A stretch of DNA of 64,000 bases, taken from Protonemura montana. Its lineage: Eukaryota; Arthropoda; Insecta; Plecoptera; Nemouridae. How positions within the stretch are numbered: position 1 is the stretch's first letter; every line of letters begins with the position of its first letter. The position numbers were made by a program, and so were the translations under genes. Positions 14,197-56,839 of this stretch are shown here, piece by piece. Location of the stretch: the NCBI GenBank assembly GCA_947568835.1, contig OX387608.1, positions 12,500,001 through 12,564,000 on the forward strand. The letters are read 5' to 3'. The notes beneath the pieces were generated by a model. The model searched no databases, was not told where the DNA came from, and saw only the letters and a list, made by a program, of their open reading frames with translations.

Positions 14197-15362
14197 TTAT
14201 GACTTGGCGTTGATCGGCCAAGCCGTTGGCGCCGCCAACGCCAGCGGCTGAACCTGTTGCGGCGGCAATGCCAGCGGCTGAACCTGTTGCGGTGGCAGCA
14301 CCGGAGTCACCGACTTGAACTCGAGATTCCCGGGCATCGAGTTCCCGTTGGTTGTTTGGAACGGCTTGAACTCGCCGTTCCCTGGCGCCCCCGCATTCGG
14401 ATTCACCCCTGGGAACGGCTTGAAATCCCCGTTGCTCGCGCCTCCCGCGCCGTTCGGATTGGATCCCGGGAACTGCGCGCCTTGGTGCGTGAACGCCGCC
14501 GGCCCGTAGCACTGCGGGAAGTAGAGCTCCGGCTTGATGACAGCCGTCGGAGCGATGCTCCGCGACAGCACCGAGTTGATCTGGTGCTTGCTCTCAGCTG
14601 CAGTCCGCCGAGCTTTGCCAGCGTGCGGGTTCATGTGGTTGTCGATGTGCTTCTTGACCTCCGGCTCGGATGCGAATCGCCGCCGGCAGTTTGGCATTGG
14701 GCAGCAGAACGGCCGATCGCCTTGGTGCGTCCTCGTGTGCTGGTCGAGGATCGCCTTCTGCCGGAAGTCCTTGCCGCACTGTCCGCACTTGTACGGCTTC
14801 TCACCCGTGTGGATGCGCAGGTGCTGGTTCAGAATCGTCCTCTGCCGGAAGTTCCGGCCGCAGTAGACGCATCCGTATGGCTTCTCGTTGGTGTGGATCC
14901 GAAGGTGCTGCGTGAGGTGAGACTGTTGCCGGAACCGTTTGCCGCATTCGGGGCACGGATATGGCCTCGATTCAATGTGGATGCAGCCGTGCTGGAGCAA
15001 CGTCGACTTCTGCTTGAACTCTTTCTGGCAGATCGGGCACCGCACGTAGAGTGGCATGCCGGCGCTGCGACCATGCTGGATGACGTCCGGCAGGCAGCCC
15101 TTGCCCTTGTAGGGCATCGGGAAGCCGGTGCCATTGCCGAAGACTGAGTGGTTCATGCCTTTAGCGTCCTTGAAGTACGCCGGGTACTGCTGCTGCAGCT
15201 GCGACGTGTTGTCCGGGGAGAAGCACTGAGTGTCGATGCGTTCGCCGTTCTCGTCGTAAGTGGAGGCGGCGTCGTCTTTGACCACGTCGCCCGGGTACGG
15301 CATGTCCTGGGGCCAGAGCGTCGGCGACATCCCGTTCTTGAACACCAGGTGCGGGCTCACGT
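14197..15362 (-). CDS. C2H2 zinc-finger terminal exon with five fingers
   Basis: Terminal coding exon of a Krueppel-type zinc-finger transcription factor, acting in the nucleus. It starts after the acceptor AATTCTAG at 15363-15370, with a CTGAC branch-like motif about 30 bases upstream, and ends with TAA at 14197. In residues numbered from the in-frame ATG at 15387, the fingers are C117/C120/H133/H137, C145/C148/H161/H165, C173/C176/H189/H193, C201/C204/H217/H221 and a divergent fifth, C229/C234/H247/H251. TGEKP-type linkers join the fingers. Before them comes a conserved CLPDVIQ; after them a low-complexity tail with repeated NGEFKPF-like and PPQQVQPLAL units. The ATG at 15387 lies in the intron, so I take the exon as joined to 18092. 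Fingers 1-4 are close paralogues of those in 15994-17159. I do not assign an orthologue name. Confidence 0.85.
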
Positions 15363-15447
15363 CTAGAATTGGCATAACACAACGCATAAAGCCGACTGTC
15401 AGACGGAACGTATCGGGCGCTAGGCCCTCACTTGGAGAAATAAATAG

Positions 15448-15453
15448 TTTATT
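15448..15453 (-). terminator. poly(A) signal for the four-finger isoform
   Basis: AATAAA on the minus strand, about 540 bases past the stop of exon 15994-17159 and 86 bases before the next exon starts at 15362. It makes the upstream exon a self-sufficient terminal exon. Confidence 0.6.
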
Positions 15454-15993
15454 GATTGGTTTTCATAACAATTATACAATGAGATTGGAATCGATTTCTT
15501 AGCTAATGTACTAGCGTCCTTTGATGGCTAAAGTAATTTGCAGGACGTTCGAAAAATGAGCTTGGCCTTGCTAACATGCAAGTCATTCTGATTGGTTAGT
15601 CGTAGGTAGCCAGATTTTAAGACGCCGCCTGAAAGCTATTTGAATCTACCAATGCTTTTAGGTGAGTACGCTCATATCTCTGGGTCCGATCCAGTGTGCA
15701 AATTTCGTTCAACGTCATCCTCCACTCTCTCGACGGTCGCGTCGAGTGGAAGCCTTCGCTGAGCCAACAAACCTTGAGATTATTTGAACGCTTCGGCGCG
15801 ACATACAGCAACATTGCCTGTGTGCAACTCACCTACCTCTCGCCTCTCATTCGCCTCGCGGGTAGGGACAAGAAAAGAATAGTTAAGACGACTCTGAACC
15901 ACTCACTCTCGCGCGACACTATAACCTCCCCCGCCCCCATTTTGGCCCCGAATTAACACTTTAGCCTACCACACTGACTCCCGCCCCCCACCC

Positions 15994-17159
15994 CTAAGAA
16001 CCACATCTATCATCAGCCTTTTTCTTGATACCACCCACACCTGCAGTCACCTCGGCCTCCAACGTGACCGAACACAGATGCGCCTGCGACTCCAGCGTCG
16101 ACCCTTCCACATCGTCGTCACCGTTGCCGCCGCGCGAGTTGCCCTCCCCTGCACCATCTACCCCTAACGCCGTGTCGACCGTCGGTCCGCCGTCGACGTC
16201 GGCGATGTCTGCACCGCATTTGTTAAGTGGAGGAGGAGGAGGATTGCAAATCTGCTCGCCTTGGTGTGTTCGGACGTGCTGGTTGAGAATCGCCTTCTGG
16301 CGGAAGTGTTTCCCACACTCCGGACACTGGTACGGCTTCTCACCCGAGTGGATTCGGAGGTGCTGATTCAGGATCGCCCGCTGTCGAAAAGTGCGTTCGC
16401 AGTAAACGCACGCGTACGGTTTCTCGTTGGCGTGTATGCGTAGGTGTTGCGTGAGGTGCGACTGTTGCCGGAACCTTTTGCCGCACTCCGGACAGCCGTA
16501 CGGCCGGCTGTCGGTGTGGATGCGTTCGTGTTGCAGTAGAGTGGACTTTTGCTTGAAGTCTTTGCCGCAGGTCAGACATTTGAAGAGGCGCAGTTCGCCG
16601 TTCTTGCTCGGCGACTTGGCGCCCGGCGGCTGGACTATGTCGGGCAGCGAAGACGCCCGCCCGTCTTGAGGATACTCGCCGTTCTGTTCGATTGTGCCCA
16701 GAGAAGTGAGGAGCGGTTGTTTGAGATAGTGTAGTGCCGAGAAGCCGCCGGGAGGTAGCATGTGTGGTGGTATCTGATGGTGGCTTCGCCCGTAGTAGGA
16801 ACTTTGCTGCATGTCTTGCCCGCCACCGCCGCCCCCACCGCCGCCGCCTCCCGGAAAGCATCGTTCCGACTCGGGCGAATGCTGGATGGCGACGTCCTCT
16901 TCGTTGGGATGGACCTGCGGTTCTCCTTGCTGCGATGCTGGATAGGGCGACGGTACGGGCGAGGTCATGCTTTGTTGCTGGTCCGGTTCCGAGCCCGGAG
17001 GGCCGCATGGCTGCTGGGGGCTACCGGACGATGAAGAGCCTTGCTGTTGTGGGTGATAACCACCCTCTTGGGACGTCGCCGAACCCCATTGGCCGGTGAT
17101 TTGTCCTTGGGCAGGACGGTCCATGCCGTCCTTATAGATCACGTATGGCGCCCCAGTGT
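15994..17159 (-). CDS. C2H2 zinc-finger terminal exon with four fingers
   Basis: Terminal coding exon of the same locus. It begins after a strong acceptor (CCCTCTTTCTTGCAG) and ends with TAG at 15994. In residues numbered from the in-frame ATG at 17196, it holds a Gln/Ser/Pro-rich region (about 45-95), an 11-glycine run (116-126), a conserved LPDIVQ (184-189), and fingers at C207/C210/H223/H227, C235/C238/H251/H255, C263/C266/H279/H283 and C291/C294/H307/H311. A proline run and an acidic, glycine-rich tail follow. The first residues of both exons align (D-T-G-A-P-Y-V-I-Y-K-D-G-M against D-V-S-P-H-L-V-F-K-N-G-M), so the exons arose by duplication. The ATG at 17196 is intronic and probably not used. 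The role is presumably sequence-specific transcriptional control. Confidence 0.88.
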
Positions 17160-18091
17160 CTGCAAGAAAGAGGGCGTTGTTGAGAGCGCGGGTCACTGGG
17201 AATTGAGTTTACTGGATTCGGTTGAAATTATTTGTGAATGATTTGTCGCGTGTGATCGGTGAATGCGAATTGTGAGATGAGTGGGCGTCGAATGGTTATA
17301 ATTGGTGCGAATAGTTGGACTTCTGGTATGTGTCTTTCAACCTTGGCAGCATGCAGAGAGGCAAGCGGCAAGCAGTGTTACAGGTTATCGTTACTACCTT
17401 CAATGCCGCAGATAGACAGCTAAAAAGCAACCGAAATGGCTGATGAAAAATAGTTGATGCATTCGCAGAAGATGAATGAAGTGCATGCCAAATAATAGAG
17501 CGTTACATGTAGATAATAATTTGCTTATCGACATTGAATGAGCTGGTAATTTCAGCCGAGGAAATGTCCTGATAGTGCATGTGCGAATGGCGAACAGCGA
17601 AATTGTTTTTGTTGATGGAGCGAAACGGTTTGCCTCGGGAGGAACCATGCTTTAGTTGTCCTATTGTATGACAAACACAATTCAGAGGGAATTGCATCTC
17701 GGCAGGGAAATGTTGTTGAATGTTTAAAGTTTGGCCGTTTAATTAAATTAATTAGCTCATAGCAGACACTTTACGTTTTATCACTGTAGATATTTAGTTG
17801 TGAGTTAAAATACAGGCACGGCATTCAAGTCCAGATGTACCTACATGCAGCATGCACTTTGTAACACAGCAAGCATTCCAGAATGCAGGTCAAAGAAAAA
17901 TCAAAGAAATCTTTTGAGTTAGTAAAAGAGTCGGGTTGCGATGAAGTATCTTTCAGAACGCAACCCTAAACATTTAACGTGATTGCCCACAAACTCCCTG
18001 AACGCAACGACAAAACCACTGGAGAAACAAATCGACATAGCAAAGAGAACAATCTGCCTGTTTGTAAGTGCGAGTTTATTAATTTTCTTAC

Positions 18092-18179
18092 CCTGGGCAA
18101 TGCAGTACATTATTTGTCTGGGCCCCTTGAGACCCGCCGCTAGGCACGCCGCAAATGACGCCGAGAAATTTATAGCCAT
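18092..18179 (-). CDS. candidate start exon of the zinc-finger gene
   Basis: On the minus strand, ACGACAATGG gives a good start context (A at -3, G at +4), with an in-frame TGA 12 bases upstream. It codes for 29 residues (MAINFSASFAACLAAGLKGP and nine more) and ends at a strong donor, CAGG|GTAAGA, in phase 1. The last G plus the AC that opens either zinc-finger exon makes an Asp codon, so both splices stay in frame, and each predicts 417 residues. The evidence is sequence only. The peptide is Ala-rich and matches nothing I know, so another upstream exon could serve instead. Confidence 0.55.
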
Positions 18180-19383: not shown

Positions 19384-20045
19384 CACAGACACACACACAC
19401 ACACACGGGTGGTTACAGAAATTAGAAAAAAAAATCGTCCTGCACATATAAAAAAAAAGCACTCTCAAAACAAACAAAAAATCGACTAAGGCAGCATGAT
19501 TCAACCATGCTGAACACCATGAGAGCTCGCATTCTGGATCTCTCCCGACAGAGACTCGCTATCTTTCTCGTTCACACAGACACCACACACACACTCACAC
19601 ACACACACCCATCACATAACGAAAATAAACTCACCAGAGCGATAATATTCCTTAAAATATCGCGAAGCAGCACGCTGCACTATTGAGTAGTATAGACTAA
19701 CGTAAGGTGTCGAACCGTTCGGCGCAAGAGCCATCTAGAAATCACTCGTTTCACAAGTAGTAAAACGTGAATTAACAACGAAAAGTGTCCAGCCTCCCTC
19801 TTCAAACACACACGGCCACACAGTCTCGAGTCAATTAACCAAAAAAACGCCCTCTACGTCGAGGGGAGAAAAAAAAACGCAGAAAACTTTACAACTTCGA
19901 AAAAAAAATGGAGTTCGGCGCTTAAAAAAAATCTACGTCAAATCCTCCTCAAAAAACGTATTCCCCGCAAACCGACGCCTTATCGCGATTTTTTTCTCTT
20001 CGCGTGTTTGCGACTAAAAAAAACACACACGCACACACACACACA
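19384..20045. repeat. (AC)n microsatellites
   Basis: CA/AC tracts at about 19384-19406, 19580-19610 and 20022-20045, in AT-rich sequence with no recognisable gene. Confidence 0.85.
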
Positions 20046-22110: not shown

Positions 22111-24640
22111 CTGGTTACAGGAGAGAAGAAAGAGCCAGACGACTTCAATTATCTTTTACCCTTGATGACGATTAGCCACGGGTCTGTGCCGCTGGCTCTC
22201 TGCTCCATCGGATACCATGAGCAGGGGAGGACAAAATCCATGTGAATGCAGCTAGGTGGAAAATCTAGCGCTGCGCTTTCGGGGTTTCGGGGCTCGGTGC
22301 AGTGAGCCGCAGAGCAATGTGCATGGGAAATTGCGCGGGAAGCGGTCATCGGGGTTATTTTGTCGGTTTTCCTGGCGGGAATTTGCGATTTGGAAAGGTT
22401 AGGGGAATTTTGTTTGGATATGGCGTACTGTTGTGGATAGAGCTACAACTTAAAAAAAAGAAGAGTATCACAAATTGATATCTTAGCATAAACAACAACA
22501 CATGTGCTATTTGGTAGGAGTTATTTTGTTATTTTTTTTTTGAAAACTGTCACTATTCCATATGAAAAATCTGACTCCACGATTGGGTACACATTTTTGA
22601 GAGGATAGTCCCTTTAAGACAATATTTCAGTCCAGAACCATCCCCTGCAGTGCTTCCAGCTCCTAAATGAAATTTCTGTGCTGATTTCAATGGCAGGTTT
22701 TTGTAAGACTGATTACACAAGCAAAATTACATTTCAGAGATTGTTATTTACATGCTAATTGTATATATTTGACGGTTCATCAACCAATAAGGCGGATATC
22801 AACTAGGCACAGTTCACAGTTGACCCAAAAGTCAGTTCACCCTAGAAAGACGGGTGTGCGCGCCTCTGCCAGAAAAGTATAGATATTCTCTCGTTGAACG
22901 AAGTGTAGTGTTCATAATAACAAACAAACACTATGAGCTCTTCTATTAAATTTTCACGATTCATTGCAAATATTTTCACTTCCTCAGTAAGTTATATACA
23001 AAGTCAAAAATTCCCAATGCTAGTTGACATTGTAAGGTAGCTGGGTTTATATTTCTAAAAAAAAACTTCGTCGGTTCTGTACGAACTCATCGACATTCTA
23101 CTGCGAATTGGTCAACAACAACGAAAAAAGCCATCTTAAATTTCCCTCGCATTTTCTCCCCGAAAAGCCTCCCAGCCTCCAAGACGCCCCTGTTTTCTTT
23201 CCTGGCGTCGTCGCCGTCGGTTGCGTCGAGAGTCGCACAGAAAGGATCACGTCTTGAAAGGCGAAACGAAAGAAAGAAGGCACGCCAGACTCGATCTTAG
23301 AAACGGGTGCCCTCGGTCTGTCGATCCTTTGGGCGGCAGGGGGGCGGCACGGGGGCAGAGAGTAGAGCGGCAAGGGGGGCAGGCGGTTGTCGGGGGTGGG
23401 ATGGCTGCAACTTCGCTGGCATTCCTCTGCATTTCTCACGTCTCATCTCGCTCTGTTGTGCATCGATCCCGAATCTATCCTACTCCCACCCGTGTTTGGT
23501 AGATGCCCGAACCAGTAGCCGAAATGTAGAGACGGAACATCTAGAAAGAGAAGGGGGGTTCGGTTGAAGAGTTGGAAGCCCGCGATGGAAGTGCGGCAAC
23601 GATGTACAGTTTTTGTTTATGTTAGTGGCTGCGCGCGAAAGATGCCCGGCGAGCACCCGATGGTGGTCCATCGGGCGCTCTTTGTTCGGCCCGTGACAAA
23701 TTTTTCTCTGTCACATGAAACCAGAAGAAAATTTTCGGATTTTCCTCATATTTTTTCACTTTGTACGTTTTTTTTTTCTGGAAATTTCGGCCTTGAGGCT
23801 GGTCGGCGATAAGCTATAATGTATAATAAATTAATCATTGGGATTTTTTTTTCCAAAATTTCTGTTTTCATTTAGCGATAAATTTAAAAATTACTTTTCC
23901 TCGGAATCAAAATTGAACATGCATTACATATGGTGACACGGCGCCGGTGTATTTATTTAGAGGCAAAATGTACGGATACAGAAAATCAACACGAGCACAG
24001 TCTAAAAAAAATTATATAAACAATGAAACAATTAACAAAAATAAGTTACGTTGACATTCATGCCTGGAAAACCGTTTCAGAACATATAACAACCTAAACA
24101 TATATATATTTAAATTTGTCAACCTCTAGTGATAATTTTACTCCAATAATCACAACAGTTTGCTGCGATATAGAGTAGTTTTAAATTGTTTACCACGCAG
24201 CGAGCGCTATATGCTCTTCGAGCTGCATCGCTTAGGGCATTTCAATTAATTTAATTGTATGGAATTTTATTTTCTCAGAATAATAATAACAATAATTATG
24301 GCGGCCACTTCGTTTGACATTAAATTAATGAAATATCCTGCGGCTACAGACGCGCAGCAAAAGGACCGCGTAAAATCTACTGTGCATCTCTCATCACCCT
24401 AGACTAGAAAAGCTTTTTGCATGATGGACGTTACAACGTCCACGTACGGTGATTTTGTATGACAAGGAATACAATATGCAATCTCTCCACATGTATGACC
24501 ATACAGTTCTCGTAGTCGCATAACCTTTCATAACCTAAAAGAGGCTTACCTTATTTTATTATTATCAACACTGTAATACCCCGTATACTTTACCCCGCGC
24601 ATTGCAAGCGTTTGCAATTTAAATAAGATTTCATCCTATG
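22111..24640. other. unassigned; G-rich block at 23.3 kb
   Basis: No gene recognised. Bases 23200-23700 are GC-rich, with G-runs at 23331-23355 and 23373-23400 on the plus strand that could form a G-quadruplex. The rest is AT-rich with homopolymer A and T runs. Confidence 0.4.
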
Positions 24641-30166: not shown

Positions 30167-30619
30167 ATTATTATTATTTTATTATTATTTGTGGTGTATA
30201 ACGACGCACTGTTTTGACATCTGGCCATGCGGCACTGGTCTAATGGCGTCGGTGAATGAGTGGATGATGACGAGGATGATGATGAACCTAACATAGCCTA
30301 GAAGGGAGGAGGGGAAACCCGGTGCCGGCACGTAGCCTACTCCTGTCGAAGAGCACCAAGGGGACCACCGGCTTCACGTCCCTTCCGAAGGACGGTACAA
30401 CTCGAACAACAGAATTCCTCCACAAATCCATGCTGTCGAGAGGTTGATAAGCAAGGCGAGTGAAGTTGCTGTCCTAACTTTCATCCCTCCAACCTCTCTC
30501 CCGAACAGAACTGGCCATGTGTATAATGGTCACCCATTCAATACGTGACTCAGCGCAGTGTTGCTTAACTTCGGTGATCTAACGAGAACTGGTGTTTCCA
30601 ACACGCCAAACCGTTCGGT
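30167..30619 (-). mobile_element. 5S-derived SINE, copy 1, full length
   Basis: Minus-strand SINE of about 453 bp. The head (right end) carries the 5S rRNA-like promoter segment: GAAGTTAAGCAACACTGCGC, then a GGGTGACC-type C box. The tail (left end) is (AAT)n. A perfect 9-base target-site duplication, ACGAAGCAC, lies at 30158-30166 and 30620-30628. This is the hallmark of LINE-driven retrotransposition. Confidence 0.88.
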
Positions 30620-31439
30620 ACGAAGCACAAATCGAACATCTTCGATACATGTAGTTAGTAGGTGAATATACTATGTACGTTATACATATTAATAATAAAT
30701 AGTTTGGGAATTTACGCTAGCAATATCATATAGATGACCAAAAGGTAGCGAACATAATTATAATTATAATTACTATTAGGTACTATTACAAGTATAAATT
30801 AATCTTGTTATTTTTCTCAATTAATGTTAATTCATCTCTTTGGGGGTGGAAGGCATGGAAAGGCGATAGATTGAAAAAGCAAAATTTAGAGGTAAAAATG
30901 ATAATGAATCTTAATTCACCTTTTCCGGTCCACATTAGACTTACAATATTCAAAGGGAATCTAATGTATTATTGAAAAAAACGATTTTTAGTATTTAATA
31001 AAAATTTATTTTCGAAATATATGCAATAATTGGCTCATTATTTATCATTTTAAAAACCTTTTAAGTGAAATAACTGTGAAAGCATTCGCCAATATTTTTA
31101 CTATCATTGAAAAAAAAAAGAAGAAAATGTCGAATGACACTCGACACAGGACCAGAAAGAGTAAATACGAACACAAATAGAAAAGAAATGGATTGGGGTC
31201 ATAGAACGAGGCGTTGAAGAGTGGAATGATGAAGAATGGCTAAAGTTTTAGAGAATGGATAAAAGAGGGTTTAAAATTTAAGAAGCAACTACACAGACAC
31301 GATACAAAAATGTATACATCTTATAAAATTTATAAGTATGTAAATCAATATAGTGATATTCACTTCATTAAACCATTAAAACCCACCTAGAAAAAAAATA
31401 AAAAAAAAACATCCAAATAGAAAATCGCGATTATATCTG

Positions 31440-31720: not shown

Positions 31721-32510
31721 AATTTTTGTCAAGGGAAATTTGATCATAGACGATAATTTTGTTACGTTTTTATCTTTGACAGGAGAGTTTCATCTCATCT
31801 CATAGTGAGAAAATGTTGCTTAATAGCCAATCCTGCTGTACTGGACTGGAAGTAAATTTTGGATAAAATATCAGTTGAATTTAAAAACTTTTTAGATATA
31901 TACAGTAATATTTTTCGACTGTCCCTATAAGATCAGTAAGATTTTTAAATTTACTCGGTATCTCAAGTAAAATTTCTCAACTCTATCACAAGTTCTAATA
32001 AGATTTTTAATGTGAACTCATCAACGACATCACTGATGTATAAAATTACAGTGAAATTCATTGAAATTCGTCGTATCTAATGCTTCATCAGTAAAAACCG
32101 TTCTTGTGGCGGCATTTTATACACAAATCGATCCGTTTTCGAGTTTCACAATGGGACTAGCGAAATTGAAGGAACATACTTGAAAGTTACTTATTCTAAA
32201 ACAAACACTGCATAATACGAACGGTTTTGTTCACAGAATAAAAATCACTTATGTTATTATTAAATTAAAATTCTGCGTTAGTGTTTTTATTTTTGAAAAT
32301 TGAAAAAATATATTTCCAGGCAGCTTTACATGCCATTAACAAGGAGCCAAGAGCCAGTAGAAAGGTCAGACTTGAGAGTCTTGGCAAAATTTATTTTAAG
32401 GATTGCTTAGTATTTAGATCACAGTCTAGATATTTTGTATGCAATCCCGAGGTTAAACCAAAATATTGCATTCATTTTTTGTTATTTATTCACAGTTTGG
32501 TTAGGCTATC
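31721..32510. other. AT-rich stretch without recognisable gene
   Basis: No supported feature. A plus-strand frame of 82 codons at 32281-32529 has no domain and runs into the SINE. Confidence 0.5.
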
Positions 32511-32521
32511 AACTGACCTGC

Positions 32522-32934
32522 CTCGTTAGATCACCGAAGTTAAGCAACACTGCGCTGAGTCAGGTATTGGATGGGTGACTATCATACACATGATCAGTTC
32601 TGTTCGGGAGAGAGGTTGGAGGGATGAAAGTTTGTACAGCAACTTCACTCGCCTTGTTTATCAACCTCTCGATAGCATGGATTTGTGGAGGAATCCTGCT
32701 GTTCGAGTTGTACCGTCCTTCGGAAGGAACGTCAAGCCGGTGGTCCCCTTGGTGTTGTTCGACAGGAGTAGGCTACGTGCCGGCACAGAGTTTCTCCTCC
32801 TCCCTTCTAGGTTAGGTTAGGTTCATCATCATCATCCTCATCATCATCCACTCATTCACCGACGCCATTAGACCAGTGCCGAATGGCCAGATGTCAAAAC
32901 AGTGCGTCGTTAAACACCACAAAACAATAATAAT
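32522..32934 (+). mobile_element. 5S-derived SINE, copy 2, 5'-truncated
   Basis: It starts inside the 5S-like head, just before GATCACCGAAGTTAAGCAAC, and ends in (AAT)n. A perfect 11-base duplication, AACTGACCTGC, flanks it at 32511-32521 and 32935-32945, so truncation happened during insertion. Confidence 0.88.
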
Positions 32935-33487: not shown

Positions 33488-33925
33488 GCGTGTTGGAAAC
33501 AACAGTGATCGTGAGATCACCGAAGTTCAGCAACACAGCGCTGAGTCAGGTATTGAATGGGCGACCATCACACACATGACCAGTTCTGTTCGGGAGAGAA
33601 GTTGGATGGATGAAAGTTAGTACAGCAACTTCACTCAGCTTGCTTATCAATCTCTCGATAGCATGGATTTGTGGAGGAATCCTGTTGTTCGCGTTGTACC
33701 GTCCTTCGGACGGGACGTTAAGCCGGTAGTCTTTATAGTTCTCTTCGACAGGAGTAGGCTGCGTGCCGGCACTGGGTTTCCCCTCCTCCCTTCTATGCTA
33801 GGCTAGGTACCCTATTAGCATCATCATCAACATCTCATTCACAGACACCAGTTAACAGGTACCACAGGGCCCTTTGTAAAAAAACAGGCAATATAGTTAA
33901 ACCCCACAAATCAATCAATCTATCA
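33488..33925 (+). mobile_element. 5S-derived SINE, copy 3
   Basis: Head GCGTGTTGGAAACAACAG, then GATCACCGAAGTTCAGCAAC; the body matches the other copies; the tail is AATC-rich rather than pure AAT. Target duplication not clear. Confidence 0.8.
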
Positions 33926-34591: not shown

Positions 34592-34976
34592 CCGTAGCGA
34601 CGCTCTGTTTTGACAACGGCCCTGTGGCACTGGTTAATGGCGTTGGTGAACGAGTTGGTGATGGTAATGATGATGAACCTAACCTAGCCAAGAATGGAAA
34701 ACCCGGGGCCGACATTTAAACTTCTCCTGTTGAAGAGCACCACCTGCTTAACGTCCTTTCGAAGGACGGTACACTACAAAACAACGAGATTCCTTCTCAA
34801 ATCCATGCTGCCGAGACTTTGGTGAACAAGGTGAATATAGTTACTGTACTTAATTTCATCCCTCTAACCTCTATTCTGACCAGAACTAGTCATGTTTATG
34901 ATGGTCACCAATTCCATACCTGACCCAGCGCAATGTTGCTGAACTTCAGTGATCTCACAAGAACATGTGTTTTTAA
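34592..34976 (-). mobile_element. 5S-derived SINE, copy 4, diverged
   Basis: Minus-strand copy with a degraded body. The head (right end) retains the reverse complement of GAAGTTCAGCAACATTGCGC and a GAACATGTGTTTTT end. The left tail is lost or replaced. Confidence 0.75.
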
Positions 34977-35204
34977 CTTACTTACTGTTCGGCTGATCTG
35001 ATTTTAATCTGTCTTTAATGGTAACGTATAAGATACTTTGAATATCCTCAAGGCTACAGGCTTCCCCGCGAGAGAAGTTCTTAGCTAACTTACTTCCCCT
35101 GCTAACTTACAGCCCCTTTCTCCTCCTCCAGCATTGCTTCCAAATTGTGAAAACAATTTTAGTTAAGATTCAAGTGGCAGGATTTCAAAGATCTTTCCAA
35201 GAAA

Positions 35205-40159: not shown

Positions 40160-40739
40160 GTAGTAATACTGGAGGGTAGTTCTTGCGCTAGTATCTTCTC
40201 TCACGGGCTAGACTGTAGAAATGCTGGGGCGCAGTCCTTGTGCTGGTATCTTCTCTCACGGGCTAGACTGTAGCAATGCAGGGGCAGTCCCTGTTCTGGT
40301 ATCTTCTCTCACGGGCTAGACTGTAGCAATGCTGGGGTGCAGTCCTTGTGCTGGTATCTTCTCTTACGGGCTAGACTGTAGCAATGCTGGGGGCAGTCCT
40401 TGTGCTGGTATCTTCTCTCACGGGCTAGACTGTAGCAATGCTGGGGACAGTCCTTGTGCTGGTATCTTCTCTCACGGGCTAGACTGTAGCAATGCTGGGG
40501 GCAGTCCTGGTGCTGGTATCTTCTCTCACGGGCTAGACTGTAGCAATGCTGGGGTGCAGTCCTTGTACTGGTATCTTCTCTCACGGGCTAGACTGTAGCA
40601 ATGCTGGGGGCAGTCCTTGTGCTGGTATCTTCTCTCATGGACTAGACTGTAGCAATGCTGGGGTGCAGTCCTTGTGCTGGTATCTTCTCTCATGGACTAG
40701 ACTGTAGCAATGCTGGGGTGCAGTCCTTGTGCTGGTATC
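40160..40739. repeat. 54-bp minisatellite, array 1
   Basis: About ten units of 53-55 bp built on GGGCTAGACTGTAGCAATGC, then TGGGG, then CAGTCCTTGTGCTGGTATCT, then TCTCTCAC. Length varies by the number of G. Frames on both strands here are by-products of a unit divisible by three. Confidence 0.95.
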
Positions 40740-42856
40740 GAAGCTATACCTGCCTTAATATGAATCGATAGAACAGTTTTGAATTTTTAAAAGTTCTAAA
40801 CTTGCTGTTACATTGATTTCGTTTTATCACATTTTTTTTCAAGGTTAAATTGTATTGCATCAAAACCGGGACCTCGTTTAATTCTGAACCAGTATATTTG
40901 ATTAGCAACAAACGCTTTAAGATATACTATGCATATACAGGATAGCTAAATTTTGATTCAAGAATACGTTTGTGATCTATCATGCCGTTCTTCAACGTTT
41001 AGAAGTTCCCACGTATCATGTTTTTGTCAAACAAAAATGTCAAAAATGTCACATGTCAAAAATGTACAAACACATAACCTAGAAATGGAGATTTAAAATA
41101 ATGACTCCGTAAATGTGAACCAACTTTGAAGAAAAATGATCAAGAAAATATTGTGTAACAGCTTTTCTACCTCTAGGTAACTTATTTTTTGCGTGGGAAG
41201 GTATTAAAATTTCCTTCCCTGTCTGAGATATTACAGTTTACCTAGAGTACCTGCTCCACTAAGCTCCACACTTTGCACTCCAGACTCTAGACTTTACATC
41301 CAGACTTTTAGCAAAGCTGTCTACGTGGTCTTGTATCTAAGAGAGTTTAGGCCTCGACATCTTTACTCTTGCTAATCGTCATCTGAACATGCTCACAACT
41401 CTGGGACAGGTCCCAAGGAAGATGTACCCGTAGGAGATCGAAGCAGGCAAACTAATTGATCAAACATCTCAAGGGATAGATTAAAACGCAGTGTACACGA
41501 CTAGCTAAGTTCACTTGCACTAATCGACATCACGGGAATAACGTTTTTTTTTTCGTTGCGGGTGAAGGTAATTTTTTTCTAGATGAAAATTTTGAGCAAA
41601 TTCGCTGTATGAGGAACGCGAAGAAAATAATTAACAAAACAAACTCTTTACTCCAAATGTTTTGTTTAGTTTTGGCAGGGTTTATTTTTTCTTTAGGCGT
41701 TTTGACTTCGCTCATCAAACTCATACGAAATTTCAATAACGATAAGAAAACTTCATTTTAGCAATTTTCGTTAATATCTTTAGGCGTGAACGAGCTGAGG
41801 TCGAGGTAACTAATTTAAAATAGATAGGTCGGCTGAAATTAATAGAAATATTAAAATAAATGTTACCTCTTGAAAAGTTAATGAAAGCATTGAGTTTATA
41901 TGGATATTAAGAGGGCCAGCGTTAATGTCAGCCGCCAACAAGTGGTAACGGTACATCCCACTGGTCATTTTTAACAAACATCAACAATGAAATAATCACG
42001 GCTTGAAAAATCGAAACAAACGCATTTATCGTTGAAGTTGACATTAATTAAGTTTCATTCAGCGTAAACCAGCCTCAAATGCGAGAAATCTACCAGAAAT
42101 AATGAAATGATTATCCGTTTTACATTCTCCATTTTTGTCTCTATACATTAGTAATTTATCGGTAGTTAAACACTTGCGCTAGTGCGGTGAAAGGTAAGGA
42201 CAAATTTGAATACGGGGAACAAGAATTGGAATACGTCGAGAGTACCTTAGGGAAGAACTGGCAGATGTGTGGAACCGTATACAATATCAATCAAAACTAC
42301 CACCCCCGTTAAAGAAACAAAAAAAACATAACATATTCTAGACTAACAGATGACTTCTAGTGCACTTGCAGCTGCACTTTTTGACAACCGTGGGAAGAAC
42401 CACACGCCGAAGGTAGGACCTCAGCAGTATGGGAGGCTAATTAAAGATTAAGATCAAAATCACAAAAATCTGACAAGAAAATTGAGCAGCACTCAATCAC
42501 ACTGCCGAAACCGTCATCGTAAACTATCAAACATCTCAATAATCCGCGAATTATGCAAAACAACCTTGATCAGAGAATGGTTCTTTTGAGGGGAGGCGGG
42601 AGGCGCCGTTGCGTTGGAGCTGCGCCGTATTTTGCCCCGGGGCAAGCGTCAAACTCAGGCCTTCTGAATCTAAGACAAACGCTGTACCGAGCTCAACTAT
42701 GGAGTGTAAGAAGTTAGAGCTAGAGATTGTGTAAAGGGAACAAATATATTTACCAAGAAGGAACTAACGCGAACGTTTGAGATTTCTGTTCGAGACGGGA
42801 GGCTGAAAAATCTTTCCAAATTAGGCGTTCTATAACAAGAAGGACCGTAGAGTAAT
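40740..42856. other. AT-rich stretch with an M2 fragment
   Basis: Bases 41905-42120 match M2 (GCCAACAAGTGGTAACGGTA, then GCGTAAACCAGCCTCAAATG). The remainder is unassigned. Confidence 0.5.
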
Positions 42857-43119
42857 TAATTGTGTTTAACGACGCACTATTTTGACAGCGGGTTCTGTGG
42901 CAATGTTCTCGTGGCGTCTCAATTAGTGGATGATGATGAGGATGATGATGAACCTAACCGTGCATAGAAGGGAGGAGGGGAAACAGGGTACTGGCATGTA
43001 GCCTACTCCTGTCGAAGAGCACCAAGGGGACCACCGGCTTAACGTTCCTTCCGAAGGACGGTACAACTCGAACAGCAGGATTCCTCCACAAATCCATGCT
43101 GTCGAGAGGTTGATAAGCA
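42857..43119 (-). mobile_element. 5S-derived SINE, copy 5, 5'-truncated
   Basis: Minus-strand copy keeping the tail-side body (TTTAACGACGCACTATTTTG, then GATGATGATGAACCTAACC). It breaks off at GAGAGGTTGATAAGCAG, so the 5S-derived head is absent. Confidence 0.85.
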
Positions 43120-43790
43120 GCGAGAACGTCCTGCTTAGATAAAGTATGCTTTAATTTTACAATAATTGAAACAACTGTTTAGGAATCACTGTCAATTATA
43201 AAGTGGAAGTTGATTAAATCGATGGAGCACACTAAAAAAAAAAAATGATTGAAACTATCGACGGAAAAAAGATAAAGAATCTGGTCACCTCATTTCACTG
43301 AGTGATATTTCCAAAACTCACCATTTTCGTGGGGAAAAACAAAAAAAACCTGGAATCTGAATCTAACAGACAACTGATATGCCAAAGGGAACCGTAATTT
43401 TTTTATTTTTAAGTGATTTAAAAAATAAATTCCAACAACCCGTACAATTGTGATATTATTTTTTAACCTCAGTTAGAAATGGCAGAGTTATGCTGGTATT
43501 TCAAAGGCACGTTAAGTAATTAACGGATCGTTAACAAACGAACTTTCGCTTGAGTGTTGCCAAAAAATAAAAATAAACCACTGTAAAACCAGCCCCTAGA
43601 AGCCCCAAGGGTCTTTGATTTTGTTTCGAATTTCATTGAGACACCTTGAACTTTCATTCCCTAAAAAAGTGCAAGCAAATAGCCTCCTAGAATCGTTCAC
43701 TTAAGAAGGCCATTCTTAGCTGGTACAGAACCTAAACCAAAACATAAAAATACAAATCCAATATCAAAAACTCGTACCACGGTTTCAAAA
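43120..43790. other. AT-rich stretch without recognisable gene
   Basis: Nothing supported. Confidence 0.5.
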
Positions 43791-44014: not shown

Positions 44015-44025
44015 GCGTGGATGGT

Positions 44026-44466
44026 ACAGAATGGTTTGGCGTTTTGGAAACACCGGTTCTTGTTCGATCACCGAAGTTAAGCAACACTGCGCTGGGTCAG
44101 GTATTGGATGGGTGACAATTATACACATGACCAGTTCAGTTCGAGAGAGAGAGGTTAAAGGTTGAAAGTTAGTACAGCAACTTCATTCGCCTTGCTTATC
44201 AACCTGTCGACAGCATGGATTTGTGGAGGAATCCTGTTGTTCGCGTCCTTCGGAAGGGACGTTAAGCCGGTGGTCCCCTTGGCGTTCTTCGACAGGAGTA
44301 GGCTACGTGCCGGCACCAGGTTTCCCCTCCTCTTTTCTAGGCTAGGTTAGGTTCATCATCCTCATTCTCATCATCATCCACTCATTCACCGACGCCATTA
44401 GACCAGTGCCGCATGGCCAGATGTCAAAACAGTGCGTCGTTACACTCCACAAATAATAATAATAAT
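44026..44466 (+). mobile_element. 5S-derived SINE, copy 6, full length
   Basis: The best copy, 441 bp. After the short leader TTTGGCGTTTTGGAAACACC comes CGGTTCTTGTTCGATCACC and then GAAGTTAAGCAACACTGCGC and TATTGGATGGGTGAC. These match the 5S rRNA region from about base 30 to 97, with box A, intermediate element and box C. A body of about 280 bp and a CATCATCATC-rich segment follow, then an (AAT)n tail. A perfect 11-base target duplication, GCGTGGATGGT, lies at 44015-44025 and 44467-44477. Confidence 0.92.
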
Positions 44467-44493
44467 GCGTGGATGGTGGACATTGGATTTGAT

Positions 44494-44925
44494 TTGTGGT
44501 GTTCAGCGACGCACTGTTTTGACAACGGGATCTGTGACTCTGGTCTAATGGCGTCGGTGTATGAGTGGATGAGGATGGTGATTAAACCTAACCTAGCCTA
44601 GAAGAGAGGAGGGGAAACCCGGTGCCGGTACGTAGCGTACTCCTGTTGAAGAGCACTAATGGGACTACCGGCTTAACATCGCTTCCAAAGGACGGAACAA
44701 CGCGAACAGCAGGATTCCTTCATAGATTCATGCTGTCGAGAGGTTGATAAGCAAGGCGAATGAGGTTGCTGCGCTAAATTTCATACCTGCTACCTCTTTC
44801 CCGAATTAAACTAGGCATGTGTTTGATGGTCACCCAACCAATGACTGAGCCTGCGCAGTGATGCTCAACTTCAAAGATCTTACGAGAACCGGTGTTTTTA
44901 ACGCGCCAGTACTTTCGGTATGGAC
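44494..44925 (-). mobile_element. 5S-derived SINE, copy 7, inverted neighbour of copy 6
   Basis: Nearly full length on the minus strand. The tail-side body starts at GTGGTGTTCAGCGACGCAC and the head ends in GAGAACCGGTGTTTTTAACG. It lies tail to tail with copy 6, about 27 bases apart. Its target duplication is uncertain. Confidence 0.85.
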
Positions 44926-45662
44926 ACTAGGGTTAGATTTGATAACAATTCTTTCCATACTATTCTTTTAGTATTTTTTAGTTTTGTAACCTTTGGTTTT
45001 AATATTCTATTTGCCATCATAATGGCACCAGGTATAACCAGGTATAAATGGCATCGGTTTTTTCCAGGGGGATCTAGTGAACAACATGTTATTTTAATTC
45101 TATATTTTGGGGTTGGTATATGAACTATTTAATCAACTAAAAAATCTCTTTCAGTGAAACTCATTCAGGGAAATTTTTATAATTTTCCGACACGGGATTT
45201 TACTACAAAGGGAGGCTTTTCAAAATTGTTGGCTCCTGTATTTTTTTTAGGTGAAGTTTTTTTAGTGTTAATGAATTGACCAAATTTAGGATCCACAGCT
45301 GCTATGAAAACTCAGATTTTATTGGGAAACACTGGAAAAACGAATTGGACAGGCCACTTTTCCAAACCTTTCTAAGTACAAGACAATTTTATATTTCCGA
45401 TTGGGAAAGAGTCAATCCACTGCTAATAATGTGATAAATCATCTTCTTGATATTTTGTCGCGATCAGACGAATGGTGTCAGCGCCTAATAGTATCCAGTA
45501 AGAGGTCATTTCTGCGAGAAAATAGACCTGAGTAAACTCGACTTAGATTAGCTATAAAGCTTAAAGAGATATAACACCATCTTATGGGGCACAGATGTAC
45601 CACAAATGTACCTTATACAGGTATATTACGTCCTTATCTTTGCAGTTAAGCATCGTGATGAT
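44926..45662. other. AT-rich stretch without recognisable gene
   Basis: A plus-strand frame of 67 codons at 44920-45123 has no domain. Nothing supported. Confidence 0.5.
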
Positions 45663-46030
45663 TGATTATTGAGGTTTAATGACTCACTGTTTAGACATCT
45701 GGCCATGTGGCACTGGTATAATTGCGTTGGTGAATGAGTGGATGATGATGAACCTAACCTAGCCTAGAAGGGAGGAGATGAAACTCGGTGTCGGTACGCA
45801 GCCTACTCCTGTCAAAAAGCACCAAAGGGGCCACCGGTTTAACGTGCCTTCCGAAGGACGGTACAACGCGAACAACAGGATTTCTCCACAAATCCGTGCT
45901 GTCGAGAGGTTGATAAGCAAGGCGAATGAAGTTGCTGTGCTAACTTTCATCCCTCCAATTTCTCTCCTGAACAGAAAGCGAATTTCTCTTAAAATTGTAT
46001 TGGTAGATGATCTCACGAGAGTTCTTCTAT
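45663..46030 (-). mobile_element. 5S-derived SINE, copy 8, head degraded
   Basis: Minus-strand copy with an intact body to about 45978. The head is largely replaced; only GATCTCACGAGAGTTCTTC at about 46010 recalls the 5S-like end. Confidence 0.8.
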
Positions 46031-56390: not shown

Positions 56391-56462
56391 GCCCGGATAG
56401 CTCAGTTAGTAGAGCACCCGACCGGCAATTGGCAGATCCCGGGTTCGCATCCCGATTTGGTT
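56391..56462 (+). repeat. tRNA-like sequence, pseudogene or SINE head
   Basis: GCCCGGATAGCTCAGTTAGT opens like a tRNA with a good A box, and GGTTCGCATCC is a B box with one mismatch. The fold fails as a working tRNA: position 33 is C not U, the anticodon stem ends mismatch, and the acceptor stem is weak at its ends. It shares GAGCACCCGACCGGCA with 63.16 kb. Confidence 0.6.
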
Positions 56463-56839
56463 TATTATTTTTCCTTCGATGACGAAACACGTTATACGTT
56501 CGATGAATATATTTGTATATTTTAGCCCAAATTCGAGGTTTTAAGCAAGTTATGAAAAATATGAAGTTTATTTTTAAGTAAAATTTAAAAGAAAAATTTG
56601 AAGTAATTGTCGAAAAGTTGTCACGCGATTGTCTGTCACTTCAATTTTAATTTTGCTTTAATTTTCGGTTTCAATTTTACCAAAGCAGAGAAAATATGTG
56701 CCAGCTAATTCAATATTATACAATAACTTAGTTCAATTTCAATAAACCTTCCAACAAATTATATACATTTAACAAATAATGCATGGATAATATAAACAAA
56801 TATGCAAAATATCCTACCTGCAATTGCAACTGCAATTGC

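Follow-up and report, generated by a model that had tools for sequence, protein, structure and literature searches.

The window analysed here, a stretch of 64,000 nucleotides from Protonemura montana (contig OX387608.1), very probably contains a jim gene on its minus strand, with two start exons, a zinc-finger exon A joined in series to a second zinc-finger exon B via two donors, and an old whole-exon duplication behind the two finger exons. By sequence comparison the locus is the insect jim gene, a name we use because NCBI titles relatives from Leptinotarsa (P0020) and Bemisia (P0070) jim. It is a strongly conserved and already known gene, and its layout is instructive. The features of the locus are the following, with slashes marking splice junctions:

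19734-19635, minus strand: exon 1a, a first coding exon of 33 codons and a final G, predicted alternative to 1b
18179-18092, minus strand: exon 1b, a first coding exon of 29 codons and a final G, ATG at 18179
17159-15994, minus strand: exon A, which has two internal donors besides its four C2H2 fingers; the read-through stop codon ends at 15994
16578-16264, minus strand: the four fingers of exon A (sequence reading)
last exon base 16344, minus strand: GT donor after finger 3 of A (RIHS/D), CGG/GTGAGA
last exon base 16260, minus strand: GC donor after finger 4 of A (RTHQ/D), AAG/GCGAGC
15448-15453, minus strand: AATAAA between the A stop and exon B, possible poly(A) signal for an A-ending form
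15362-14197, minus strand: exon B, terminal, five C2H2 fingers
15039-14635, minus strand: the five fingers of exon B (sequence reading)

The minus-strand positions that an earlier note on this DNA had assigned to exons 1b, A and B (18179-18092, from 17159, and 15362-14197) hold up. Exon A opens at 17159 directly after CTTTCTTGCAG, and exon B opens at 15362 directly after CCAATTCTAG, an acceptor whose pyrimidine tract is, by eye, only modest. Both exons are open in their reading frames, and Pfam finds zinc-finger families in each of them. They had been said to share a single phase, and indeed both open with AC, G/AC gives Asp, and all joins are of phase 1. The donor of exon 1b at 18092 (CCCAGG/GTAAGA) ranks 18th of 3650 GT sites by a weight matrix with hand-set frequencies, which was applied to 3650 GT and 2828 GC sites of the minus strand and gave all donor ranks reported here. 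The broader proposal of one gene, in which an upstream exon is shared and the finger exon is duplicated with both copies in the same phase, is supported as well.

The orthologue search in insects that the earlier note had called for returned, as best matches, insect proteins with the same exons. These protein searches covered the best 120 of 1171 matches for exon B as query and the best 120 of 1465 for exon A, and 216 proteins were fetched for comparison from this best-scoring part together with all 26 matches of a third search, built around a direct 1b-B junction. Exon 1b, MAINFSASFAACLAAGL..MYC, is 93% identical to the Tribolium N-terminus over 29 residues (tblastn, E 6.6e-15), and the two finger sets stand in the order A, B both in the window and in insect jim proteins. 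The three-finger core of A is identical at 81/81 positions in eight beetles (Anoplophora, Tribolium, Onthophagus, Aquatica, Harmonia, Anthonomus, Photinus, and Leptinotarsa), and that of B at 82/82 positions in seven of these eight (98.8% in Onthophagus) and in the bee Eufriesea. This comparison used only B rows for Diaphorina, Eufriesea, Frankliniella, and Polyplax and only A rows for Mischocyttarus and Eretmocerus, and Planococcus was dropped with neither finger pattern matched. The start exon, finger exons A and B, and the predicted series junctions are those of jim (Drosophila CG11352; Leptinotarsa P0020, Bemisia P0070), a likeness judged on the 216 fetched proteins, to which the Drosophila protein does not belong. 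Tribolium P0137 seems by eye to retain an intron within exon A, whereas exon A of the window has none. A tree of exon B, which covered 31 of 33 rows chosen from the 216 proteins, does not settle the placement of the window among Frankliniella, mayflies, Blattella, and holometabolans; the row most alike to exon B of the window is P0001 (82% over 314 columns), which groups with Blattella.

Besides 1b, sequence matches indicate that 1a is a second first coding exon that had been overlooked earlier. It matches the moth proteins P0022 and P0026 with 56% identity over 34 columns (blastp, E 3e-6), and the moth N-terminus maps to 19734-19645 in tblastn with E 2.4e-6 for this piece alone and 0.002 for the whole protein. 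The donor of 1a at 19635 (CTG/GTGAGT) ranks 5th of 3650 GT sites by the hand-set matrix and has the same phase as that of 1b. The two exons would presumably stand under separate promoters. A third start exon, 1c (ATG at 22241), was considered and rejected as unsupported, with a donor rank of 158/3650 and a best blastp E of 5.2 among the 216 proteins. The N-termini of Onthophagus, two Dendroctonus, and an aphid have no convincing counterpart in the window by tblastn (lowest E 0.24), and for the aphid N-terminal piece none was listed at all.

The main correction to the gene model concerns the relation of the two finger exons, which the earlier note took to be strictly alternative terminal exons, holding that their joining in series would argue against this. 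Among the 216 fetched proteins, 38 carry A then B within one protein, and these come from beetles, moths, Hemiptera, flies, and both mayflies. RIHS/D is the junction in 21 of them and RTHQ/D in 11, together 32/38 with a variant B start allowed (19 and 11 under a stricter junction pattern). The relatives' proteins are largely database gene models, and the sample was drawn from the best-scoring matches, so that the counts favour long joined proteins. Neither junction is seen in 6 of the 38; of these, P0007 and P0011 run through, and in P0027 and P0032 additional residues separate A from B. A clear A/B junction is absent from the remaining two, the psyllid proteins P0043 and P0057. P0028 (bee) and P0092 (plant bug) are series-joined in appearance and stand outside the 38 for missing one finger pattern.

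Both junctions have their donors in the window. By the hand-set matrix, the GT donor at 16344 ranks 34th of 3650 GT sites and the GC donor at 16260, GC being a rare donor type, ranks 4th of 2828 GC sites, each in the right phase. They are spaced by 84 nt, the length of one finger, and each falls in Gly-Glu codons just after a finger. All four series models are open, two coding for 8-finger proteins (689 and 693 residues) and two for 9-finger proteins (717 and 721 residues), and tblastn alignments of the relatives' proteins to the window break at the exon ends and at both A donors. With 32/38 A-then-B proteins of relatives joined in series and both donors present in the window, strictly alternative terminal exons are not borne out, and the series arrangement that had been named as contrary evidence is what the relatives' database proteins, largely gene models, contain. 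Exon B is thus most likely read after A rather than as an either-or ending, and we infer from these sequences that the same junctions are used in Protonemura montana. In the proposed mechanism, first exon 1a or 1b, each ending in G, would splice onto exon A, whose donor after finger 3 (GT) or finger 4 (GC) would splice in phase to terminal exon B, giving a protein of 8 or 9 fingers; with neither A donor used, the transcript would continue to the stop and encode a protein of 4 fingers.

Four entries omit the A fingers and run from the A start into B (P0070, P0201, P0202, and P0203, with P0201 and P0203 lacking the B fingers too), so either other forms exist or these entries are misannotated. 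A further strong GC donor-like site lies in phase at 16680 within exon A, before the fingers, and linking it to these entries would be speculation.

Mutually exclusive use of the terminal exons, with 1b joined to A or straight to B as at lola, is an unlikely account of the locus. The exon phases would fit it and joining 1b straight to B leaves the frame open (417 residues, five fingers), but the direct 18092-15362 junction occurs in 0/216 fetched proteins, and a search designed around it returned 26 matches, of which 0 have the junction (79 candidates scored, proteins of about 186-593 residues only). The series joining in 32/38 A-then-B proteins likewise speaks against exclusive use. More in keeping with such endings are 11 fetched proteins that contain A only and stop 8 to 132 residues beyond finger 4; 12 fitted this pattern, and P0085 was dropped as having no simple A-tail end. 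Four of the tails start with GERPS and two with GEHFSLP, which points to some within-group likeness, and the others are unlike one another and unlike GEQICNPP of the window. The 88-codon A tail of the window is open, though so are 396 of 5000 simulated stretches. The AATAAA at 15448-15453, the only AATAAA or ATTAAA within 17000-13000, is weak evidence because one such hexamer in 4 kb does not exceed chance expectation. A protein form ending in A is therefore best regarded as a possible product alongside the series-joined forms.

Two separate genes, with exon B under its own promoter and start, are a highly improbable reading. Many fetched entries do consist of B alone (e.g., P0030 and P0034), but they diverge just ahead of DVSPHL, as reading frames called on unspliced DNA would, and A and B share one protein in relatives. 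Serial use of A and B within one gene remains the preferred reading.

Loci of the lola type, for which broad is cited as an example, have a common start feeding finger exons in one phase, as does the window. At lola itself, cis- or trans-splicing is described as linking common exons that contain a BTB domain to a single C-terminal exon out of about 20, each of them unique (PMC1947980). In contrast to lola, the locus in the window has a pair of finger exons, which are mostly used in series in relatives. Pfam lists no BTB domain in exons A and B, the two exons scanned, and 1a and 1b with 33 and 29 codons are too short to hold one.

That A and B are paralogous, as the earlier note proposed, is clear from their LPD motif and fingers 1-4, which are identical at 94/140 aligned positions (E 2e-64). 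Among the matches listed in their own genome (196 matches from 150 scored candidates out of 1360), exon B ranks second against the A fingers with 79% identity, and no other exceeds 53%. The view that the two are recent duplicates is rejected. A tree of 50 rows (27 of them different) separates 24 A rows from 26 B rows by one branch with 100/100 support, in a bootstrap that had not settled. The A and B fingers have the same residue at 85/107 aligned positions, and the codons at these 85 positions are identical in 46 cases compared to 44.1 expected from independent codon-usage draws, i.e., silent sites are at chance level. Because of this tree, these silent sites, and A and B cores that match those of several beetles, the duplication is an old one; both A and B are present in mayflies, Hemiptera, moths, beetles, and flies.

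The duplication probably took in the whole exon, since the non-finger parts of A and B align as profiles as well (hhalign, probability 82.3, E 1e-5), with a score of 37.7 compared to a best score of 17.4 in a column-shuffle control (n=20). This alignment spans residues 96-173 of A and 42-104 of B, and because it begins further in, the likeness of the starts APYVIYKDGM and SPHLVFKNGM is judged by eye alone.

C2H2 fingers touch DNA with helix positions -1, 2, 3, and 6. At these positions of fingers 1-4, A and B agree in 15 of 16 contact residues, suggesting that the two halves probably read nearly one DNA sequence and that the joined protein would read a longer or doubled site. Tentatively, and with a chance that we place just short of even, the tandem-doubled finger exon would predate the split of the sampled winged-insect orders, and donors in linker codons would choose 4, 8, or 9 fingers behind two starts, changing the DNA site finger by finger. 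These results correct the gene model of an insect DNA-binding protein that is strongly conserved, and two questions become testable: does the choice of linker donor add or remove one finger, and does a protein with two almost identical sets of fingers read a doubled DNA site? When over-expressed, Drosophila Jim is described as enhancing heterochromatic silencing (PMC2936522), so jim isoforms could matter for chromatin, and a dendrite gain-of-function screen lists Jim as well (PMC2503983).

Elsewhere in the window, a dispersed repeat of ~400 bases lies in both orientations at 30179-30628, 32502-32931, 33488-33909, 34660-34977, 42921-43250, 44017-44454, 44489-44906, and 45658-45976. Two copies have a 5S rRNA match at their beginning, so this element is probably a 5S-derived SINE. 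Genome-wide it has 4232 candidates, of which 40 were scored, and full-length copies besides the query are 89-91% identical. Positions 56391-56463 give an Rfam tRNA match (37.3 bits) without a corresponding ARAGORN call and may be a pseudogene or a repeat, and 40173-40772 hold a tandem array with ~54-base spacing.
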